This document shows positions 3,615 through 29,929 of a DNA stretch of 29,929 nucleotides, piece after piece. The translations under genes were made by a program, and so were the position numbers. The notes under the pieces are model-generated. The model ran no database searches, was not told the DNA's origin, and was given only the letters and a program-made list of their open reading frames with translations. Location: the IMG/VR virus record IMGVR_UViG_3300027687_000045, positions 1 through 29,929 of that record; one strand, 5' to 3'. Within the stretch, counting starts at the first letter, position 1, and the number at the start of each line of letters is the position of its first letter. The stretch comes from a virus.

Positions 3615-3965
3615 CTATCCTTTACTGTTTGCGTCTTTCACTGCTTTAATATGTGTGTACCAAGAACCTGTCTTATCTAATTTACCATCATCAATATCGT
3701 GATATAATTTATCTAATTGTTGTTGCCAATCTAAGTATTCTGTTTGTCTTTTATTTAAAACATTTGTTAAAGTATTTGCTGTATTACCTGCAGATTCATA
3801 TGATGCTATTTGAGAATCAGTTGGTTTAGTAACTCCTGAAACATTCCAAGTTTTAATATAAGGACCTGCTCCATCATCTTGTAATTCAATATTATCTTTT
3901 TCATTGTCCCAAGTTTTAGAGTTTGCTATTAAGTATAATTTTATTTTTGTTTTATAATGAGCCAT
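3615..3965 (-). CDS. Fibre-associated protein, possible assembly chaperone (XkdW-like tail), paralogue 2
   Basis: The 116-aa protein has an N-terminal domain beginning MAHYKTKIKLYLIANSKTW with a DDGAGPYIKTWNVSG segment. A helical C-terminus follows (QQQLDKLYHDIDDGKLDKTG, then HIKAVKDANSK) that is shared with the 127-aa protein at 2638-3021. Its start lies 2 nt after the stop of the 202-aa fibre gene. Family function is not proven; a role in folding, trimerising or attaching the neighbouring fibres is inferred from context. Confidence 0.75.
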   Translation of the reverse strand: MAHYKTKIKLYLIANSKTWDNEKDNIELQDDGAGPYIKTWNVSGVTKPTDSQIASYESAGNTANTLTNVLNKRQTEYLDWQQQLDKLYHDIDDGKLDKTGSWYTHIKAVKDANSKG

Positions 3966-3966
3966 T

Positions 3967-4575
3967 TTATATTCCTACCAATTTAAATCCACCAAATTCA
4001 GTATATGCTGTACCTGATTTTACATTTGCTGCGTTATCACTAGTATTATTTTGTTGTAAAGTATAAGCCTCTACATAGTCATCTGCATCTAAATCTACTA
4101 TTGCAGTAGCATTTGCACTAATTATACTTTGTAAACTGCTAACTGCAACATGATTACCAACATCAGCAACAGCAGAACCATTTTTGTATATTTTAGCATA
4201 AAAACCTGCTTGGTCTGTTAAACTACCTGCACTTGTATTATGTTCCTGATAACCAACTCTTACATATATAAAGTATTTTCCTGCAATTGTTGGTGTAAAT
4301 CTATAGTTTGTGCCGTGGTCATATTTTCCATCTGAATCAAAATCTTCTGTTGCAAAAGCAAGTTTCGTTGCTGTTGCGTTGGCTATACTTTGGTCAGAAG
4401 ATAGACTAGCTTGAAAAGAAGGAGTTGATTGAAAAAACTGTGCGTCTATTTTTTTTATAGTACCTGCGTCAGATATTAAAAATTCATCGGTTGTTGCGGG
4501 TATTGCAGTTAAAGCTGTTTTACCACTAACTATTGTATCGTTTAATCCGCTTGGTCCTATTGTACTAATTGCCAT
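3967..4575 (-). CDS. Fibre tip protein with C1q/TNF-like jelly-roll domain
   Basis: The 202-aa protein has a short N-terminal segment (about 55 residues), then a domain with the pattern of C1q/TNF-like folds. Visible marks are SFQASLSSDQSIANATATKL, YRFTPTIAGKYFIYVRVGY, FYAKIYKNGSAVAD and a final YTEFGGFKLVGI strand. Such jelly-roll trimers are common at phage fibre tips and bind surface ligands. The ribosome site AAAGGAG lies in the duplicated spacer (4576-4611). It is part of the fibre block; ligand unknown. Confidence 0.8.
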   Translation of the reverse strand: MAISTIGPSGLNDTIVSGKTALTAIPATTDEFLISDAGTIKKIDAQFFQSTPSFQASLSSDQSIANATATKLAFATEDFDSDGKYDHGTNYRFTPTIAGKYFIYVRVGYQEHNTSAGSLTDQAGFYAKIYKNGSAVADVGNHVAVSSLQSIISANATAIVDLDADDYVEAYTLQQNNTSDNAANVKSGTAYTEFGGFKLVGI

Positions 4576-9491: not shown

Positions 9492-10244
9492 CTAGTCTTT
9501 TTTGAAGTCAAAATGTTTCCAGAGGTGTCCTTTATATCTATGGTTCCCGTAATGGGTAAGTTCTGAACCAATGTCTGCGTAGATTGTTCCTCCGATTTTT
9601 TGCCATCTTCTTGAGAAAGCGTAGTCTTCTGATAAATATCTTCCATCCTCATCCTTCATTGTATCAAAAAATAAATAAGTATTTTTTGAGTTAAATTCTT
9701 TACCATTAAGTATTTGGTCTGTTTTGTAATATAAATCTGGATACTTATCTACCATTTTTTCTAAACATTTTCTTTGTATTAAAAGAAAACCTGTAGCGGC
9801 ATCCAAAACTTCTACAAAACCTTTATCAATATTAATTTTTTGTCTATCTTTAAAATTTAAAACATAAGGATGACATAAATTTTGCCAATCTTTTTTTTGT
9901 TCAATGAGCTTAGGAATTAAATCCCAACTAAACATTTTCATTGGATAGGGAGCACAAATAACTTCCTTATCATAATCTAAATATCTTGTTATGCTTTCTG
10001 CTGGAAAGCCAATATCCGCATCAACAAATAATAAGTGTGTTGCATTTTTATCATCAAGAAAATTTGCTACTAAAGTATTTCTGGCTCTAGTTATTAAAGA
10101 TTCTTGTGCAAGAGTTTGTATTCTTAACGATATATTTTGTTCATTACAATATTTTTGTAATTCTAAAACACTATGAAAATAATCTTCTGATAACCATCCC
10201 CCATAGCAGGGTGTTGCTAAAAATATATTTGCTCTAGCTGACAA
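9492..10244 (-). CDS. Glycosyltransferase-like protein (GT-A type)
   Basis: The 250-aa protein probably transfers a sugar from a nucleotide donor. Evidence for a GT-A fold: N-terminal NIFLATPCYGGW strand and loop, an RARNTLVANFL helix, then LLFVDADIGF with the metal-binding Asp-X-Asp (residues 75-77), a PYPMKMFSW loop, VLDAATGFLLIQRKCLEKM, and GRYLSEDYAFSRRW containing the conserved Glu-Asp of the acceptor site. The start is TTG at 10244 with GGAG 9 nt upstream, overlapping the previous gene by 11 nt. It lies within the virion operon, so it may modify a virion protein or the host envelope during assembly. Target is not predictable here. Confidence 0.85.
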   Translation of the reverse strand: MSARANIFLATPCYGGWLSEDYFHSVLELQKYCNEQNISLRIQTLAQESLITRARNTLVANFLDDKNATHLLFVDADIGFPAESITRYLDYDKEVICAPYPMKMFSWDLIPKLIEQKKDWQNLCHPYVLNFKDRQKINIDKGFVEVLDAATGFLLIQRKCLEKMVDKYPDLYYKTDQILNGKEFNSKNTYLFFDTMKDEDGRYLSEDYAFSRRWQKIGGTIYADIGSELTHYGNHRYKGHLWKHFDFKKD

Positions 10245-23012: not shown

Positions 23013-23650
23013 TCGAATATCATATCTAATTATCTATATTTCACAAGCACATAGTGTCTTAAAGGGAAGGGGGTATGTTTCTGCTATTATGGTATGTCGG
23101 TGTGCACTATATGGATGTTAGGGTAATCCAGACAATTGGGGGGTGGGGGGTATTATATTTGCCTATGTCAGAAATCGCACCTATTGTCCTAGTTAAGTAT
23201 GTTGATATGCATGATAGTATTAATGATAGTTAGTCATGCTGATAACAGTGATGCCTGACACACACTCTCTCATTGTACTCATAATGTAGATTATGCGACA
23301 ATACAATATGCTGATGAATTAGTAATATGAGAGCGATGCCCCTCCCCTACCCTACTGCCTAGAATTAAATCATAGCAATGCTAATCTGTTGTGCTGATGT
23401 GAATGAGTAAGTGCAGACCTAGATATATCTGTTGCTCTCAACCTGTCGGCAAAAGAGTGGCTAACACTGACACACATCACTACATCTAAGTGGCATCTCT
23501 AGCCTCATTAAAAGAGGTTTTATTTCTCTTCAGCTAGTCGAATAGGTTGTAAGTCTTGCTAGTCTCTATAGGTGTGATGGATACTCTAGATTGTTTACGA
23601 CTCTAATCTATCTCTATTTAGGCGTGACAATAATGGTTTGTAAAATGCCC

Positions 23651-23686
23651 TGAGATATTCACACAGTATATGTGAACTGTATCTCA
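23651..23686. promoter_or_regulatory. Bulged inverted repeat (operator or RNA hairpin)
   Basis: TGAGATA (23651-23657) pairs with TATCTCA (23680-23686), and inside it TTCACA (23658-23663) pairs with TGTGAA (23671-23676). A 3-nt bulge (CTG) sits on one side and the loop is 7 nt. This gives 13 bp of stem. It lies about 60 nt before the promoter-like site and 140 nt before the gene at 23828, so an operator is as likely as an RNA element. Confidence 0.5.
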
Positions 23687-23735
23687 TTGCAGAGATGATG
23701 AGATTAAGTACATAGTATTATGTAGGAAAAATATA

Positions 23736-23757
23736 TTTTGTTTTTACTATATAGTAG
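23736..23757 (+). promoter_or_regulatory. Promoter-like motif P1
   Basis: TTTGTTTTTACTATATAG (within 23736-23757) lies 70 nt before the first rightward gene and contains a 12-bp palindrome TACTATATAGTA. The same motif with two small insertions precedes the second rightward block at 25411. It does not form a normal sigma-70 -35/-10 pair. Confidence 0.4.
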
Positions 23758-23827
23758 TATGAGAGAGTAATCTGTAGTTGTTGCTATCTCATTCATTTAC
23801 AAGACTACATAAAAGGCGAAAATAATA

Positions 23828-25073: not shown

Positions 25074-25191
25074 GATAATATATAACTACTGTATTTTAGT
25101 ACTTTTTAATACTAGAACATTCCTAAAACACTTGTATTTCAATGTTATATTGGTGGTTGTAAGTGGTTGTTTATTTGTGTTATAGTTCTGT

Positions 25192-25350
25192 ATGAATAAA
25201 AATACCCACCTTGCAAATCTGAAAGTTATAATAGGATTTGCCTTATTGTTTATTGCTAGACTAGGAAATGTTAATGCACTTGCAGACCTCCAACATTTAG
25301 CGATAAGTAGTATTGGATTGAGTTCAATCAAAATAGCGTACTGCGAATAA
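25192..25350 (+). CDS. Possible 52-aa exported or membrane peptide
   Basis: The frame encodes MNKNTHLANLK, a hydrophobic stretch VIIGFALLFIARLGNVNALA that fits a signal peptide with an AxA-like cut, and a short remainder ending KIAYCE. There is no clear ribosome site before the ATG. A sigma-70-like -35/-10 pair ends about 6 nt upstream, which would give a nearly leaderless mRNA. The opposite strand frame (25086-25331) begins only with TTG and looks worse. Confidence 0.3.
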   Translation: MNKNTHLANLKVIIGFALLFIARLGNVNALADLQHLAISSIGLSSIKIAYCE

Positions 25351-25410
25351 TCAAGAAAACGCAGTATTACTAATTGAGGCAGTGGGGCAAGATGAACAAT
25401 AAAAAATTAA

Positions 25411-25433
25411 TTTGTTTATTACTATATAAGTAG
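25411..25433 (+). promoter_or_regulatory. Promoter-like motif P2
   Basis: TTTGTTTATTACTATATAAG, followed by TAG, matches motif P1 at 23736 apart from two single-base insertions. It lies 196 nt before the first gene of the rightward block. Two similar AT-rich motifs at the heads of two rightward units suggest a phage promoter class. Confidence 0.4.
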
Positions 25434-25536
25434 CATCTTGTACTGCAATAGGTCGACAAAGACTTAGTCAGCTTCCAAACCTGATTATGTTTCACTTAGA
25501 TTGAGTTGCAAAAATCAAAAACTTTTTTTCTTAAAA

Positions 25537-25606
25537 TAAATTTTTATGGATGCACATATTTAGTTGCATCCACAAACATTTATATGTTTGGGAGAGAAGA
25601 GTTAAT
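25537..25606 (+). repeat. Double-hairpin element E1
   Basis: Order: TAAATTTTTATG, hairpin 1 TGGATGCA (25547-25554) with TGCATCCA (25565-25572), 10-nt loop, then hairpin 2 CAAACAT (25573-25579) with ATGTTTG (25584-25590), TTAT loop. The ribosome site GGGAGAGAAGAG and ATG 25607 follow. E1 to E4 are homologous. E1 is the only copy without a preceding gene, so it may be the leader of the transcript. Confidence 0.85.
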
Positions 25607-25897
25607 ATGCTTAATCAAAATACAGAGACAACAAAAATTGTTTATACTAAAATCAAAACAGAACACGATAGCAAGTGGGGAAATATTTCTTATAAAGAAA
25701 AATTTAATCTTAAATTTAATGATACTGATGTTTCAGTAATCCATGACTTTTGGGATTGGAAGCCTTTTAAAAAACAAAACCCTCAAGCTATAGAAGACCT
25801 CAAAGAGCATATCTCTGAAGAATTACAAAAAGGAACTAAATCAAATTTTTTACCTTATTGTAATTTTGGAGCAAGTGTCACTTGGGAAGTAATATAA
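25607..25897 (+). CDS. 96-aa protein of unknown function (module after E1)
   Basis: ATG 25607 is chosen because it follows the ribosome site GGGAGAGAAGAG at the end of E1; a longer frame from 25550 would translate the hairpins. The protein is charged with several aromatics: MLNQNTETTKIVYTKIKTE, SKWGNISYKEKFNLKFNDTD, VSVIHDFWDWKPFKKQNP, an acidic/basic helix (AIEDLKEHISEELQKG) and YCNFGASVTWEVI. Its beta-rich core and central helix suggest a small folded domain. No family is recognised. The stop codon is part of E2. Confidence 0.8.
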   Translation: MLNQNTETTKIVYTKIKTEHDSKWGNISYKEKFNLKFNDTDVSVIHDFWDWKPFKKQNPQAIEDLKEHISEELQKGTKSNFLPYCNFGASVTWEVI

Positions 25898-25964
25898 ATT
25901 TTTATGAATGCACATACTTAGTTGCATTCACAAACATTTATATGTTTGGGAAGGAAGAGTTATT
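25895..25964 (+). repeat. Double-hairpin element E2
   Basis: It begins with the TAA stop of the previous gene inside TAAATTTTTATG. Hairpin 1 is TGAATGCA (25905-25912) with TGCATTCA (25923-25930); relative to E1 a G-C pair is replaced by A-T in both arms. Hairpin 2 is CAAACAT (25931-25937) with ATGTTTG (25942-25948). GGGAAGGAAGAG and ATG 25965 follow at the same distance as in E1. Confidence 0.88.
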
Positions 25965-26126
25965 ATGGAATGTGAAGATTGTAATAATCAAGGTTATGTT
26001 TTATCTAATAATGAAAAAGAGGAAAAAGACTTGCAGAAGTGTGACACCTGTCAGACTTTTGTATCAGACTGTGAAGCAAAGTTATTTGTTTTAGATTATA
26101 TTAAAAACAAAGGAAGGAATAAATAA
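25965..26126 (+). CDS. 53-aa zinc-knuckle-like protein
   Basis: ATG 25965 follows GGGAAGGAAGAG of E2; the longer frame from 25908 would translate the hairpin. The product has two CxxC pairs: CEDC (residues 3-6, followed by NNQGYV) and CDTC (26-29, QKCDTCQTF). CxxCxxxG resembles half of a DnaJ-type zinc module, and such mini-knuckles are common among small phage proteins. A further Cys35 precedes a helix. The stop overlaps the next ATG as TAATG. It probably binds one zinc ion; its partner is unknown. Confidence 0.78.
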   Translation: MECEDCNNQGYVLSNNEKEEKDLQKCDTCQTFVSDCEAKLFVLDYIKNKGRNK

Positions 26127-26410: not shown

Positions 26411-26613
26411 TGGATTATGAATTTAGAAATAGTCAGGAGGCATTTGAGAATGCTCTTAACTTAGGTAAGTTTACAGATGACTCTGAGGATGGCAGACAGT
26501 ATGTGGGTGGATGGATGTATATGTATAGCCTAGCTAATACTGATTACTTTAAGAATAGGAATGACAGGAAATATTTAACTGTCGAATATAAATCTATAAG
26601 TATACCTAGATAA
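26410..26613 (+). CDS. 67-aa protein of unknown function
   Basis: ATG 26410 overlaps the previous stop as TAATG. The product is acidic and aromatic: YEFRNSQEAFENALNLGKFT, DDSEDGRQYVGGWMYMYSLA, NTDYFKNRNDRKYLTVEYK. The sequence EFRNSQEAFENALNLGKF...YVGGWMYMY resembles small proteins in marine phages that carry an N-terminal helix and a YMYMxS-type motif. Function unknown. Its stop codon opens element E3. Confidence 0.78.
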   Translation: MDYEFRNSQEAFENALNLGKFTDDSEDGRQYVGGWMYMYSLANTDYFKNRNDRKYLTVEYKSISIPR

Positions 26614-26676
26614 ATTTTTATGAAAGCACATTGATGCTTTCACAAACATTTATATGTTTGGGAAGGAAGAGTTATT
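26611..26676 (+). repeat. Double-hairpin element E3
   Basis: It begins with the TAA stop of the 67-aa gene. Hairpin 1 is TGAAAGCA (26621-26628) with TGCTTTCA (26635-26642), 6-nt loop CATTGA; the T-A pair of E2 is replaced by A-T in both arms. Hairpin 2 is CAAACAT (26643-26649) with ATGTTTG (26654-26660), as in E2. GGGAAGGAAGAG and ATG 26677 follow. Confidence 0.88.
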
Positions 26677-26910
26677 ATGGAAATTAATTTACCTAATAAA
26701 ACTATTGAACTTAATGATGCAAAAGTTCATACAATTATGGATGGCTTAGATGAACTTATTATTAATATTGATAGCATGACATCTAATGAAAAAGATATGC
26801 GTGTTTATGATGATAAAGGAAAATTAAATAAATATGGCAAACAATGTGAAGATAAAAAACAAAATGCGATTGAACTTCATTGTCAATTGTATGACTATAT
26901 AACTAGATAA
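26677..26910 (+). CDS. 77-aa protein of unknown function (module after E3)
   Basis: The product MEINLPNKTIELNDAKVHTI continues with MDGLDELIINIDSMTSNEKD, a Lys/Asp-rich linker with KLNKYGKQCEDKKQNAIE and a helix LHCQLYDYITR. It contains two Cys but no CxxC. It is likely a small helical protein; no family is recognised. The ATG follows E3's ribosome site and the stop is the first codon of E4. Confidence 0.78.
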   Translation: MEINLPNKTIELNDAKVHTIMDGLDELIINIDSMTSNEKDMRVYDDKGKLNKYGKQCEDKKQNAIELHCQLYDYITR

Positions 26911-26981
26911 ATTTTGATGAATGCACATTGATGCATTCACCAACATTTATGTTGGAATTAACAATTAACAAGGAGAAATAT
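26908..26981 (+). repeat. Double-hairpin element E4 (diverged)
   Basis: It begins with the stop of the 77-aa gene (TAAATTTTGATG). Hairpin 1 is TGAATGCA (26918-26925) with TGCATTCA (26932-26939), loop CATTGA. Hairpin 2 is CCAACA (26940-26945) with TGTTGG (26950-26955); A-T is replaced by C-G in both arms relative to E1 to E3. It then diverges, with a longer leader and a strong AAGGAG site before ATG 26982. Confidence 0.85.
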
Positions 26982-27878
26982 ATGTTTGAAGTAAAAAAGA
27001 ATGAACTAACGCTTAGTGATAGTTTTAAATTTGATGTAGGACTAACACCGAATTATTATCGTGATGAAGTGGCAAATGAGTTTGTAAAAATACCTGAGAG
27101 TTTTCAGGTTATGGATACAACTAACAATGAGCCTATCAGCAATGCAATTGTAGGCTCTCAGTATAATCCTGATGCATACTACAAGATGATTGCCGTGCTT
27201 TCAGAGGCAATATTAAAAAGTAATATTTATGGAGAGTTTCATGTTCAAGACAGTCTCTTCGATGGTAAAGGGAAATTTGTCAGGGAAATTAGATTTCCAA
27301 ATCTTACTATTACACCAAAGACTAGAAAAGTTGGTGACATCATCGAATTTAGAATTCGATTTAGAACTAGCTTGGATGGGTCTTGGATGCACTTACTTGA
27401 AATTGCACCAATAAGACTAGCTTGTTTAAATGGACAGACTTCAGCAATTCATAAGCTGATGTTTGCAAATAAACACACATCAGGTTTCAGTGTAGATACT
27501 CTGAGAATAAATATTCAGAGTGGCATTGAAACTTTTCAGAGTATGGGAAGTTGGTTTGAGTCTCTATCTAATAGAGAAATTTCTGAGTCTAATGTCAGGG
27601 AAATTTTAAATACTACTTTATTTAAAAACCAAGTTAAGGCAAAAGCTGACCTAGATAAAAACAAGACTTATAATTGGATGATTAACCAATTCTATCAGGA
27701 GAGCAAAAACTTAGGCATGACTATGTACGCCTGTTATAATATGCTTACGCATTGGGCATCCCACACACCTCACGAACTTAGAACTAAAAGTACGAGAGTT
27801 CATCAGAGACAATACGATGACAATCAAAAAGTGCTTTTTGTTTTAAAGTCACCAGTGTGGAATAACTACATGAACTAA
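26982..27878 (+). CDS. DUF932-like phage protein
   Basis: ATG 26982 follows AAGGAG; an upstream start at 26928 would lie within E4. The 298-aa product has FKFDVGLTPNYYRDEVANEF, then YNPDAYYKMIAVLSEAILKS, a central core with FRIRFRTSLDGSWMHLLEIA and PIRLACLNGQTS (about residues 148-178), and HKLMFANKHTSGFSVDTLRI. The core pattern SLDGS...L...IRL.C.NG is that of the DUF932 (phage/plasmid-like) family, found in phages and plasmids in early accessory regions. Molecular function is unknown; links to DNA recombination or host takeover are only guesses from neighbourhoods. The C-terminus (TYNWMINQFYQESKNLGMTM, ending VLKSPVWNNYMN) is helical. Confidence 0.8.
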   Translation: MFEVKKNELTLSDSFKFDVGLTPNYYRDEVANEFVKIPESFQVMDTTNNEPISNAIVGSQYNPDAYYKMIAVLSEAILKSNIYGEFHVQDSLFDGKGKFVREIRFPNLTITPKTRKVGDIIEFRIRFRTSLDGSWMHLLEIAPIRLACLNGQTSAIHKLMFANKHTSGFSVDTLRINIQSGIETFQSMGSWFESLSNREISESNVREILNTTLFKNQVKAKADLDKNKTYNWMINQFYQESKNLGMTMYACYNMLTHWASHTPHELRTKSTRVHQRQYDDNQKVLFVLKSPVWNNYMN

Positions 27879-27890
27879 CAATAAGTTCTA

Positions 27891-27946
27891 ATGATTGCAT
27901 CTTCGGATGCAATCATCAGCACTTGCTGAAGATGGAAGGTAAAAAT
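27891..27946 (+). promoter_or_regulatory. Double-hairpin element E5 (unrelated sequence, same layout)
   Basis: Hairpin 1 is ATGATTGCATC (27891-27901) with GATGCAATCAT (27906-27916), 11 bp closed by a stable UUCG tetraloop. Hairpin 2 can form as TCAGC with GCTGA around ACTT (27916-27929). The ribosome site GGAAGG and ATG 27947 follow. Sequence differs from E1 to E4, but the order of two hairpins, then ribosome site, then start is the same. Confidence 0.8.
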
Positions 27947-28255
27947 ATGCTAGATAACAAATGGAAAGTTGGAAAGTATGTAGATTACAGAAATGTATTC
28001 ATACATCATTCCAAGCCATTGCCATTTGATGAGGGTGAGGAATACACAGACGATAAAAATGAAGCGTCACAAATTAGTGTATTCCTAGAGACTCATTACA
28101 AAGATGAGAATGGTGAAGAAGAGTCCATGTTTGATGTTGAATTTGAAAAAGAATTTGACATAAAAAAACTTGGATATGACAAAGCTAAAGACAAAGCTAT
28201 TTCTTATGCAATAAAACTTAGTAAGAAGTATGACATTGACTATGAGTGGTATTAA
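27947..28255 (+). CDS. 102-aa protein of unknown function (module after E5)
   Basis: ATG 27947 lies 7 nt after GGAAGG. The product begins MLDNKWKVGKYVDYRNVFIH, then KPLPFDEGEEYTDDKNEA, strands SQISVFLETHYKDENGEEES and FDVEFEKEFDIKKLGYDKAK, ending with the helix DKAISYAIKLSKKYDIDYEW. The alternation of strands followed by a helix suggests a small alpha/beta fold. No family is recognised. The next gene follows after 16 nt with AAAGGAGAG. Confidence 0.8.
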   Translation: MLDNKWKVGKYVDYRNVFIHHSKPLPFDEGEEYTDDKNEASQISVFLETHYKDENGEEESMFDVEFEKEFDIKKLGYDKAKDKAISYAIKLSKKYDIDYEWY

Positions 28256-28271
28256 TAAAGGAGAGTTAACA

Positions 28272-28442
28272 ATGACTAGTTTAAAAGAATATAATTTATG
28301 GGTTAAACCGAACAAAAAGTGTGGTGACTGTGATGTCGAGTACATTTGTTTTACCTGTGAAGCAGAACAAGTAAGGAATAAATATCCTGACGCAGTTTAT
28401 ACAGATGACTGTCAGTGGGATTTAAAGGAGAGTGAACAATGA
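28272..28442 (+). CDS. 56-aa CxxC protein
   Basis: ATG 28272 follows AAAGGAGAG. The product has two CxxC pairs, CGDC (residues 17-20) and CFTC (26-29), separated by DVEYI, and a later Cys. The tail is acidic and aromatic (DAVYTDDCQWDLKESEQ). It probably binds a zinc ion through the two close pairs. It overlaps the next gene as ATGA. It is one of five small CxxC-bearing proteins in this region. Confidence 0.78.
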   Translation: MTSLKEYNLWVKPNKKCGDCDVEYICFTCEAEQVRNKYPDAVYTDDCQWDLKESEQ

Positions 28443-28570
28443 ATGGTGCAGATTTATTTTTAATTTTAGCAGTTTTTTACTTGTGCTATAAATTAATACA
28501 ACAGTACAAGAAAGAAAAATCAGCAAGTAGAACTATTAAGATTACACATTATAAGGAAAGTGAACAATGA
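28439..28570 (+). CDS. 43-aa single-span membrane peptide
   Basis: The frame starts at ATG 28439, overlapping the previous TGA, and its TGA overlaps the next ATG. The product starts MNGADLFLILAVFYLCYKLI (hydrophobic residues 5-20), followed by a basic, helical tail (QQYKKEKSASRTIKITHYKE). It is probably anchored in the inner membrane with the tail in the cytoplasm. The ATGA overlaps on both sides, with GGAGAG and GGAAAG sites upstream, support translation. Confidence 0.7.
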   Translation: MNGADLFLILAVFYLCYKLIQQYKKEKSASRTIKITHYKESEQ

Positions 28571-28767
28571 ATATTAACGATAAAATAAACGATGCACTAT
28601 GTGACTTGTATGATGTGAAAAAAACATTGCACTATACAAGAGACAGATACGAAGACATGAGGGTAATTGATTTACCTAAAGATAGTGATGGAACAGAGTT
28701 TACAATCAGAGATTGTTTAGAAAATACTATTTCTATCTTAGAGCAATTAAGGGAGAGTAAACAATGA
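28567..28767 (+). CDS. 66-aa helical protein
   Basis: ATG 28567 overlaps the previous stop as ATGA, with AAGGAAAG upstream. The product is helical: MNINDKINDALCDLYDVKKT, then LHYTRDRYEDMRVIDLP and a C-terminal helix CLENTISILEQLRESKQ. Charged helices around a short Asp/Gly loop (KDSDGTEF) suggest a helical hairpin. No family is recognised. Confidence 0.75.
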   Translation: MNINDKINDALCDLYDVKKTLHYTRDRYEDMRVIDLPKDSDGTEFTIRDCLENTISILEQLRESKQ

Positions 28768-28919
28768 CTAAAGAACAATTTATAAAAGAAATATTTGAGA
28801 TAGCATTTGGAGAAACAAAGCTGACTCAAGAACTGTTAGATGAAAAAGATTATCAAACAGTTGCAGATAAGATAATGGAGTATTCAGATAATGCTCTTAA
28901 ATGGGAGGAGGGTGAGTAA
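28764..28919 (+). CDS. 51-aa acidic helical protein
   Basis: ATG 28764 overlaps the previous stop as ATGA (ribosome site GGGAGAG) and its TAA overlaps the next ATG as TAATG. The product MTKEQFIKEIFEIAFGE, then TKLTQELLDEKDYQTVADKI and MEYSDNALKWEEGE is acidic and helical. No function can be given. Confidence 0.72.
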   Translation: MTKEQFIKEIFEIAFGETKLTQELLDEKDYQTVADKIMEYSDNALKWEEGE

Positions 28920-29098
28920 TGAAGATATACGGATACGATTTAGTAGAGGGAACAAAGTTTGAGATGTCTATAGAAGAACTTTGTAGGATAAATAACTGCG
29001 AGGATGGTCTGAATAGTAATTGTTATATCTACACTACAGAGGAAGATAGAGATTTACATTTAAGCCAAGTAGGGAAACTCAAGTTAGAAAGTATGTGA
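28919..29098 (+). CDS. 59-aa protein of unknown function
   Basis: ATG 28919 overlaps the previous TAA, with GGGAGGAGG just upstream. The product is MKIYGYDLVEGTKFEMSIEE, then LCRINNCEDGLNSNCYIY and TTEEDRDLHLSQVGKLKLES. Three Cys lie in the middle. The FEMSIEELCRINNC part looks like a short helix joined to a strand (YIYTTEED), perhaps a degenerate helix-turn-helix. It is the last gene before element E6. Confidence 0.72.
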   Translation: MKIYGYDLVEGTKFEMSIEELCRINNCEDGLNSNCYIYTTEEDRDLHLSQVGKLKLESM

Positions 29099-29109
29099 AT
29101 AAGTTAAGC

Positions 29110-29175
29110 AGAAGTGGTTGACCCACTTCTACTTCACTTGTGTGAAGTTTTATTAACAATATAAAAGGAGCGAAT
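29110..29175 (+). promoter_or_regulatory. Double-hairpin element E6 (unrelated sequence, same layout)
   Basis: Hairpin 1 is AGAAGTGG (29110-29117) with CCACTTCT (29123-29130), 5-nt loop. Hairpin 2 is ACTTCAC (29131-29137) with GTGAAGT (29142-29148), loop TTGT, with no spacer between. TTTTATTAACAA, the site AAAAGGAGCG and ATG 29176 follow. It resembles a terminator for the upstream unit with the second hairpin in the leader of the next. Confidence 0.8.
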
Positions 29176-29484
29176 ATGAAGAAACCTTATAAGAGAAATG
29201 TCGATAAGATTGTATCGATACTAAAGCAACTGCGTTATGACAACAGAGTTGCAAATGCTATAGTGAAACCTTTTAAGTTAAAATTAATTGACTTACTAGG
29301 TGGTCAAGAAAAATTAACTGTAGATGGAAGTATTGGAAGTTTAAGTATACAAAAAATTTCTAAGCCTATGGTTGATATGGATTTATTAAAAGCAAATCCT
29401 ATTCATTATAAAAAGTATATTAAATATCAGACTCAATACAGATTAACGTCTAAAGAGTTTGATATTATAATGGAGGTAGCATAA
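29176..29484 (+). CDS. 102-aa basic protein of unknown function
   Basis: ATG 29176 follows AAAAGGAGCG. The product MKKPYKRNVDKIVSILKQLR, YDNRVANAIVKPFKLKLIDL, LGGQEKLTVDGSIGSLSIQK ends with KYQTQYRLTSKEFDIIMEVA. The N-terminal helix, the basic strand-like middle and the C-terminal segment suggest a small alpha/beta protein, possibly nucleic-acid binding given its charge. It overlaps the next gene as TAATG. No family is recognised. Confidence 0.78.
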   Translation: MKKPYKRNVDKIVSILKQLRYDNRVANAIVKPFKLKLIDLLGGQEKLTVDGSIGSLSIQKISKPMVDMDLLKANPIHYKKYIKYQTQYRLTSKEFDIIMEVA

Positions 29485-29723
29485 TGGATGACACTCTAAT
29501 CACTACAAAATTAATTACCAAAGATTTTTGGAAAATTTTGAAGTCAGCAAAAGATTTAGAAACATTCAAAGTTAATTCTATTGTTAAAGAAAAAGATAAA
29601 GAGTTTATTTTTATTTTAGATAAACTTATGAATAAATGTGGGTGGCACAACTACCCACTTTATCCAAATAATATTTATATTGATGAATGGGAAAGTTCAC
29701 CAATTATTAAAGAAGAAGTTTAA
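29484..29723 (+). CDS. 79-aa protein of unknown function
   Basis: ATG 29484 overlaps the previous stop. The product MDDTLITTKLITKDFWKILK, then SAKDLETFKVNSIVKEKDKE, FIFILDKLMNKCGWHNYPLY and PNNIYIDEWESSPIIKEE is a mix of helix and strands, with a GWHNYPLY aromatic patch. It is the last complete gene in the window, followed at 40 nt by an intrinsic terminator. Confidence 0.78.
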   Translation: MDDTLITTKLITKDFWKILKSAKDLETFKVNSIVKEKDKEFIFILDKLMNKCGWHNYPLYPNNIYIDEWESSPIIKEEV

Positions 29724-29763
29724 AATAATAACTTAGAAAAATAAATCATAACAATTGATACAT

Positions 29764-29797
29764 GGGATACTGGATGCAATCCAGTGTCCCTTTTTTT
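29764..29797 (+). terminator. Intrinsic terminator of the rightward operon
   Basis: GGGATACTGGAT (29764-29775) pairs with ATCCAGTGTCCC (29779-29790), 12 bp with one G-U pair and a 3-nt loop, followed by seven T and later another T8. This is a strong Rho-independent terminator, marking the end of the rightward unit that began near 25411. Confidence 0.9.
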
Positions 29798-29882
29798 ATG
29801 TCTTTTTTTTACAGAGTTATAATTATCTATTTTTATTTGATGATAGTCTTATGATAGTATGGTCATGATATACGCGACTTTT

Positions 29883-29929
29883 TGATAGGGCAGATTTTCT
29901 GCCCTATTATCAACATTTAATTGATGTTT
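29883..29929 (+). promoter_or_regulatory. Double-hairpin-like element E7 at the window end
   Basis: ATAGGGCAGA (29885-29894) pairs with TCTGCCCTAT (29898-29907), 10 bp and a 3-nt loop. A second weaker hairpin AACAT (29912-29916) with ATGTT (29924-29928) follows, and the window ends there. Arrangement is like E5 and E6, so a further gene probably begins just beyond the window. Upstream, ATGATAGT occurs twice, 11 nt apart (29840 and 29851). Confidence 0.55.

Follow-up and report, generated by a model that had tools for sequence, protein, structure and literature searches.

Small genes fill a rightward block at 25.6-29.7 kb of this virus DNA, and the question raised by the block is whether the hairpins in its long intergenic gaps form an arrangement that is functional in itself. 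The window, by which we mean the whole stretch analysed, is a 29,929-base IMG/VR fragment. Leftward genes extend to 22.7 kb, structural and packaging genes such as portal and terminase among them, and its closest cultured relatives are the Pelagibacter phages HTVC023P/027P and the Roseobacter phages CRP-901/902 (~36-46% protein identity). Genes were called with a home-made scorer, and one of the nine rightward-block genes tested, the DUF932 gene, passed the Pfam cut-off. The + strand gaps in this early block measure 67, 63, 71, 68 and 77 nt and every one carries hairpins; the remaining junctions between 25607 and 29723 are of 16 nt or overlap, just as an earlier note on this DNA had described. 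Ahead of the early operon lies a long non-coding stretch (window 25100-25530; 2300-1790 (rc) in contig L008), which shares segments with relatives, e.g., AATAGGTCGA and TTAGATTGA.TTGCAA, and could contain an early promoter or another structured RNA. Related contigs were recovered by a terminase scan and an alignment scan, and single-protein scans with the DUF932 protein and the proteins encoded downstream of the elements E5 and E6 (see below) found no relatives.

Six of the hairpin regions, E1 to E6, share one layout: a 10-nt strand a, an apical hairpin of 8-11 bp (hp1), and the segments a' and a''. In form A, a' pairs with a in a fixed register to give an interrupted ~20-bp hairpin (17-21 pairs) with a central 1x1 mismatch. 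In form B, a' pairs with a'' to make a second hairpin (hp2), leaving two hairpins back to back. Since a' is both the 5' arm of hp2 and the partner of a, the two forms are mutually exclusive. When 28 elements were set side by side, the position -k before hp1 paired with the position +k after it for k from 2 to 10; at k = 1 nearly every element had a mismatch. E1-E4, E5 and E6 all obey this rule, with 7-8 of the nine pairs of this clamp formed in the fixed register (the family criterion being at least 7/9). The pairs of stems reported in the earlier note do exist, at 27891-27916 and 27917-27928 in E5 and at 29110-29130 and 29131-29148 in E6, with E7 hairpins also present; the minimum free energy structure is nonetheless a single interrupted hairpin, of ~20 bp in E5 and 17 bp in E6. 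That description overlooked the alternative fold, with which the double hairpin is mutually exclusive. The comparison shows that the early operon carries one cis-acting RNA element in repeated copies, E1-E5 and, by its architecture, E6.

The predicted energy gap between forms A and B ranges from -2.5 to +4.9 kcal/mol (excluding three elements with two-base loops in form B), a near-equality due in part to strand a nearly repeating a''. The switch is not universal, as copies ahead of a family-14 gene in L015, L087 and L091 keep hp1 and the clamp with no clear hp2. Sequence follows lineage, with C(A/C)AACAT...ATGTT(T/G)G in E1-E4 and GAATACT...AGTATTC in relatives. In L091, the hp2 loop of one copy holds a self-folding insertion (3940-4131), with the surrounding hp2 stem retained. 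A strong double hairpin on the early strand of L107 (4808-4847; TAAAAACATGATTGTTTTTA / ATAAAGATCATGATCTTTAT) lies within a coding region and has no clamp.

For searches, a covariance model of the double-hairpin structure (R1) was built from 25 training elements, with E5 and E6 left out. All window copies lie on the + strand. E1 (25535-25590; a 25537-25546, hp1 25547-25572, a'/a'' as hp2 25573-25590) is the leader copy ahead of the first early gene, which starts at 25607; it has a folding z of -3.9 and, as a training-set member, scores 54.8 bits (E 4e-9). The next three copies, also training-set members, each open strand a with the stop codon TAA of the upstream gene: E2 (25893-25948; a 25895-25904, hp1 25905-25930, hp2 25931-25948; TAA 25895-25897; 57.4 bits) before the gene at 25965, E3 (26609-26660; hp1 26621-26642, hp2 26643-26660; TAA 26611-26613; 56.8 bits) before the gene at 26677, and E4 (26906-26955; hp1 26918-26939, hp2 26940-26955; TAA 26908-26910; 48.5 bits) before the DUF932 gene at 26982. 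In alignment with E1-E3, the strands a, a' and a'' of E4 have changed in matched fashion. Within the operons of three relatives, a terminator-like hairpin stands right after the element and before the DUF932 gene (L008 1165-1100 (rc), L087 4886-4935, L015 2140-2105 (rc)).

E5 (27879-27928; a 27879-27890, hp1 27891-27916, hp2 27917-27928; following gene 27947) combines an 11-bp hp1 stem capped by a UUCG loop with a 5-bp hp2 stem, and contains a second in-frame TAA within strand a. Its long form has 20 pairs at -20.6 kcal/mol and its clamp 7/9 pairs. The earlier note had taken it to be unrelated in sequence to E1-E4; this does not hold, because R1, built without E5, finds it at 32.5 bits (E 1.7e-4), and its sequence supports E5 as a diverged member of the family. 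E6 (29098-29148; a 29098-29109, hp1 29110-29130, hp2 29131-29148; following gene 29176) has stems of 8 bp (hp1) and 7 bp (hp2) and 8/9 clamp pairs in register. It was not found in the R1 search, so its membership rests on architecture, and divergence from the common family is likely. Of the two origins that had been proposed for the unlike sequences, divergence thus applies to E5 and likely to E6, and repeated independent origin is not needed. Window 28559-29113 and L015 1-415 are ~94% identical although the rest of the block has diverged, and L015 lacks one of the small genes; judged by sequence, this likeness is a recent module exchange.

E7, which had been placed in the same class, does comprise an intrinsic terminator behind the block's last gene (29764-29790; a 12-pair stem followed by seven T) and hairpins in the leader of the next unit (29883-29929; one of 12 pairs and a weaker one, cut by the window end). 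Inspection of its hairpins revealed no register clamp and its R1 match has E=0.46, leaving it not clearly a member of the family. Its first hairpin qualifies as an intrinsic terminator; a U run on the sense strand is absent in E1-E5 and weak in E6. Between the terminator and the leader hairpins of E7 is a repeated motif, ATGATAGT (29840-29858), which also occurs at window 23211-23230 and in L015 (rc) 10112-10128, L091 5741-5757, L087 6863 and L022 (rc) 14685. It sits on the early strand, often in tandem, and often follows a terminator directly or lies close to where the early region begins; the opposite strand has almost none. The motif may serve the phage as a promoter or a regulator site.

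Several lines of evidence bear on whether these folds are under selection. E1-E6 are more stable than their dinucleotide shuffles, at z -2.7 to -3.9. The feature on which the earlier note relied, a pair of neighbouring stems of 5 bp or more, also appears in 17-25% of shuffles and is therefore a weak criterion by itself. Of the 37 non-redundant early gaps of relatives, 20 carry a double hairpin against 7.5 expected (mean z -2.9). The corresponding count in late gaps was 11 of 42 against 5.5 expected (mean z -1.2). The real signal is in stability, register and covariation rather than in the double stem. A score based on pairs of perfect stems missed E2 and E5 owing to loop length and over-extended stems, and was replaced by folding followed by the register test.

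Among 14 distinct a/a' combinations, 116 of the 126 clamp positions are paired, 103 of them as Watson-Crick pairs. Sliding the register by one to three positions lowered the Watson-Crick count to 20-40, and permuting a' among elements gave a mean of 72 and a maximum of 95 in 20,000 trials, never reaching 103. An alignment of 25 sequences has 96.7% of cells paired for form A, with compensatory change at 15/18 pairs, and 97.1% for form B, with compensatory change at 15/17 pairs; slid controls drop to 32-42%. These compensatory changes indicate that both pairings are maintained. Because the 28 elements used for the register and permutation test had been picked with a score that counted the clamp, the test was redone on adjacent hairpins chosen without it. 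At least 7/9 clamp pairs were then present in 22 of 27 early hairpin pairs versus none of five late ones; the other five early pairs, mostly terminator-like, had 3-6, as did the late pairs. In a separate, held-out set of elements the clamps are nearly uniform, so that permutation did not discriminate (107 observed against 98 expected). Wobble cells on the coding strand comprise 32 G-U versus 5 A-C (16 versus 5 without the dominant column), an excess that favours RNA of that strand as the molecule concerned. The contigs are related and counts across them are not independent. Covariation, fixed register and repeated occurrence across many contigs and two deep lineages nevertheless give strong support, at the level of sequence, to selection on the arrangement, in agreement with the proposal that the arrangement itself is functional.

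Position adds a further regularity. The elements occupy operon leaders and intergenic gaps directly ahead of a ribosome site, and the start codon mostly follows the end of hp2 at a distance of 14-34 nt. In 15 of 22 clamp-bearing elements, exactly 7 nt separate the end of the upstream stop codon from hp1, and TAA forms the foot of strand a in most intergenic copies. Copies in operon leaders can have TTATG or AAAG where TAA stands, with a' changed to match, which separates the pairing constraint from the coding constraint.

Many marine phage contigs carry 4-6 copies of the element per early block. Relatives whose terminase is 83-87% identical have different hairpin pairs at their early junctions, and the genes that follow E4 and E6 have homologues preceded by elements of the same architecture and different sequence, bearing out the expectation that homologues keep the hairpins. 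Matches to the pattern AGTATTTT-(hp1)-GAATACT-loop-AGTATTCA occurred in 19 contigs, two or three times in several of them, and mostly lie directly after a stop codon and ahead of a ribosome site. A second pattern picked out L150, L151, L154, L157, L158, L165 and L166, all outside the model training, with 4-5 elements each. Searching whole records with the model gave matches in 6/16, one block per record; the whole records of HTVC023P, HTVC027P, CRP-902 and 023Pt_psg01, four relatives that are cultured or have complete genomes, had none, nor did the L022 record although its terminase is 83% identical. L130, L131, L103 and L107 carry elements with terminases 39-40% identical to that of the window, and the family therefore spans a deep split.

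A pattern search of bacterial genomes returned 10 matches and no convincing element, and blastn of one element against phage records gave no match. Like the element, the phage and marine RNA families of Rfam are short structured RNAs in leaders; none matches the window, where an Rfam 15 scan reported no families at the gathering threshold and the weak hits (E 0.025 to 0.82) were on the opposite strand and far below it. A literature search, with most subscription journals outside its coverage, produced no report of such elements in related phages. When homologous genes were paired, both had an element on the upstream side in 24 pairs, with 13 pairs of element against tight junction and 12 of element against other gap; on the downstream side both had one in 4 pairs, with 17 of element against tight junction (the pairs are non-independent and include a few false-positive calls, e.g., window 23234-23827). 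Judging from these counts, presence of the element appears mostly to track the downstream gene.

What such an element does may be approached through known systems. In T7, the gaps before genes 0.3, 0.5, 1, 1.1 and 1.3, which are RNase III sites, hold hairpins with ~9-10-bp apical stems, some of them interrupted and extended. As at R0.3 to R1.3, stable hairpins occupy the first leader and the gaps separating early genes, immediately ahead of ribosome sites, and form A with its 17-21 pairs has the interrupted ~20-bp intergenic or leader hairpin of a T7-type site. Unlike the element, T7 sites have no conserved competing second hairpin and no stop codon at the base, and the register clamp is found at the gene 1.3 site only (8/9, against 3-4 at the other T7 sites). 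We consider it quite possible, if somewhat short of probable, that the element is a bistable site acting in cis on mRNA processing or stability, comparable to the RNase III sites of T7. This reading is favoured for the equal exposure of the Shine-Dalgarno in both folds, the lack of an excess of gene-order breaks and the T7-like hairpin positions; counting against it, form A is near the lower limit for RNase III, and a competing hairpin of this kind is missing from T7 sites.

Other readings draw on parts of the same evidence. The stop codon ending exactly 7 nt from hp1 in most intergenic copies, the compensated leader copies and the distance from hp2 to the start codon would all suit a switch without cleavage, in which a ribosome at the embedded stop disrupts the clamp and lets hp2 form, altering ribosome loading on the next gene by coupling or insulation. 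The predicted exposure of the Shine-Dalgarno is, however, much the same in both folds (0.75 in form A, 0.73 in form B), so that simple masking, also considered as a switch and rejected, is unlikely; leader copies, moreover, retain both folds though no upstream ribosome arrives. Switching of this type is conceivable and rather unlikely. The T4-type PeSL elements described by Arbiol and colleagues in 2010 are reportedly mobile regulatory cassettes in which an early promoter is joined to a stem-loop, and they resemble the elements as repeated stem-loops between small early phage genes. By analogy with these or with integron attC, selection might act on gene-module exchange at a recombination border or cassette end in DNA. 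The block is strongly mosaic and its gene modules are flanked by the elements; at one element L095 and L103 have a common downstream gene and different upstream genes, and L015 has a 94% identical copy of the gene that precedes E6 in the window, yet no E6. Unlike PeSL, no promoter was identified in the elements, where gene-order breaks are also no commoner (113/131, 0.86) than at tight junctions (215/233, 0.92), leading us to reject a recombination hotspot. Fixed orientation, stop-codon phasing and sense-strand wobbles indicate RNA, and inspection of the AAGTATT family found the attC core boxes RYYYAAC / GTTRRRY absent from the site ends. We regard a DNA-level site as quite improbable.

The put RNAs of HK022 are ~70 nt long, with two stem-loops in early leaders (PMC9378689). 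Form B likewise presents two adjacent stem-loops in early phage leaders, and in L008, L087 and L015 elements lie directly before a terminator-like hairpin within the operon, as might be expected if they modified RNA polymerase to pass early-operon terminators by processive antitermination. Against this, put stems have specific non-canonical pairs, a triplex and a defined junction (PMC9378689), whereas the stems here, compared with put by description only, are plain, with loops of 3-12 nt and 2-6 nt and varied sequence. There are also 4-6 copies per block rather than one per early operon, and nothing like the clamp that excludes hp2 has been described for put. Antitermination of this kind is an improbable function. 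Many copies per genome and the lineage-specific sequences given above would be compatible with a phage regulator that binds RNA and recognises every copy by its fold. Stems and loops vary within one genome, which leaves little sequence for specific recognition, and we find such a binding site very doubtful.

Returning to the processing or stability site, the element would divide the early polycistronic RNA into units, much as T7 RNase III sites do before early genes. In this scheme form A would serve as double-stranded substrate, form B would represent a protected or uncut state, and hp1 or hp2 would cap the new RNA ends beside an open Shine-Dalgarno. As the upstream stop codon lies within strand a, a ribosome that terminates there should pull the clamp apart and shift the balance to form B, and translation of the upstream gene could thereby gate the switch between A and B. 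That the terminating ribosome flips each leader from a processing-competent long hairpin to the double hairpin, setting mRNA fate gene by gene, is a possibility we put forward as an unlikely one.

A vague impression of hairpins between genes has thus become a defined motif with a covariance model. It describes a compact RNA element without a match in Rfam, repeated along the early blocks of uncultured marine phages, and able to adopt two exclusive folds, each backed by covariation, with a stop codon embedded in one of them. For these phages it yields a specific prediction, namely that translation termination would be coupled to mRNA processing.
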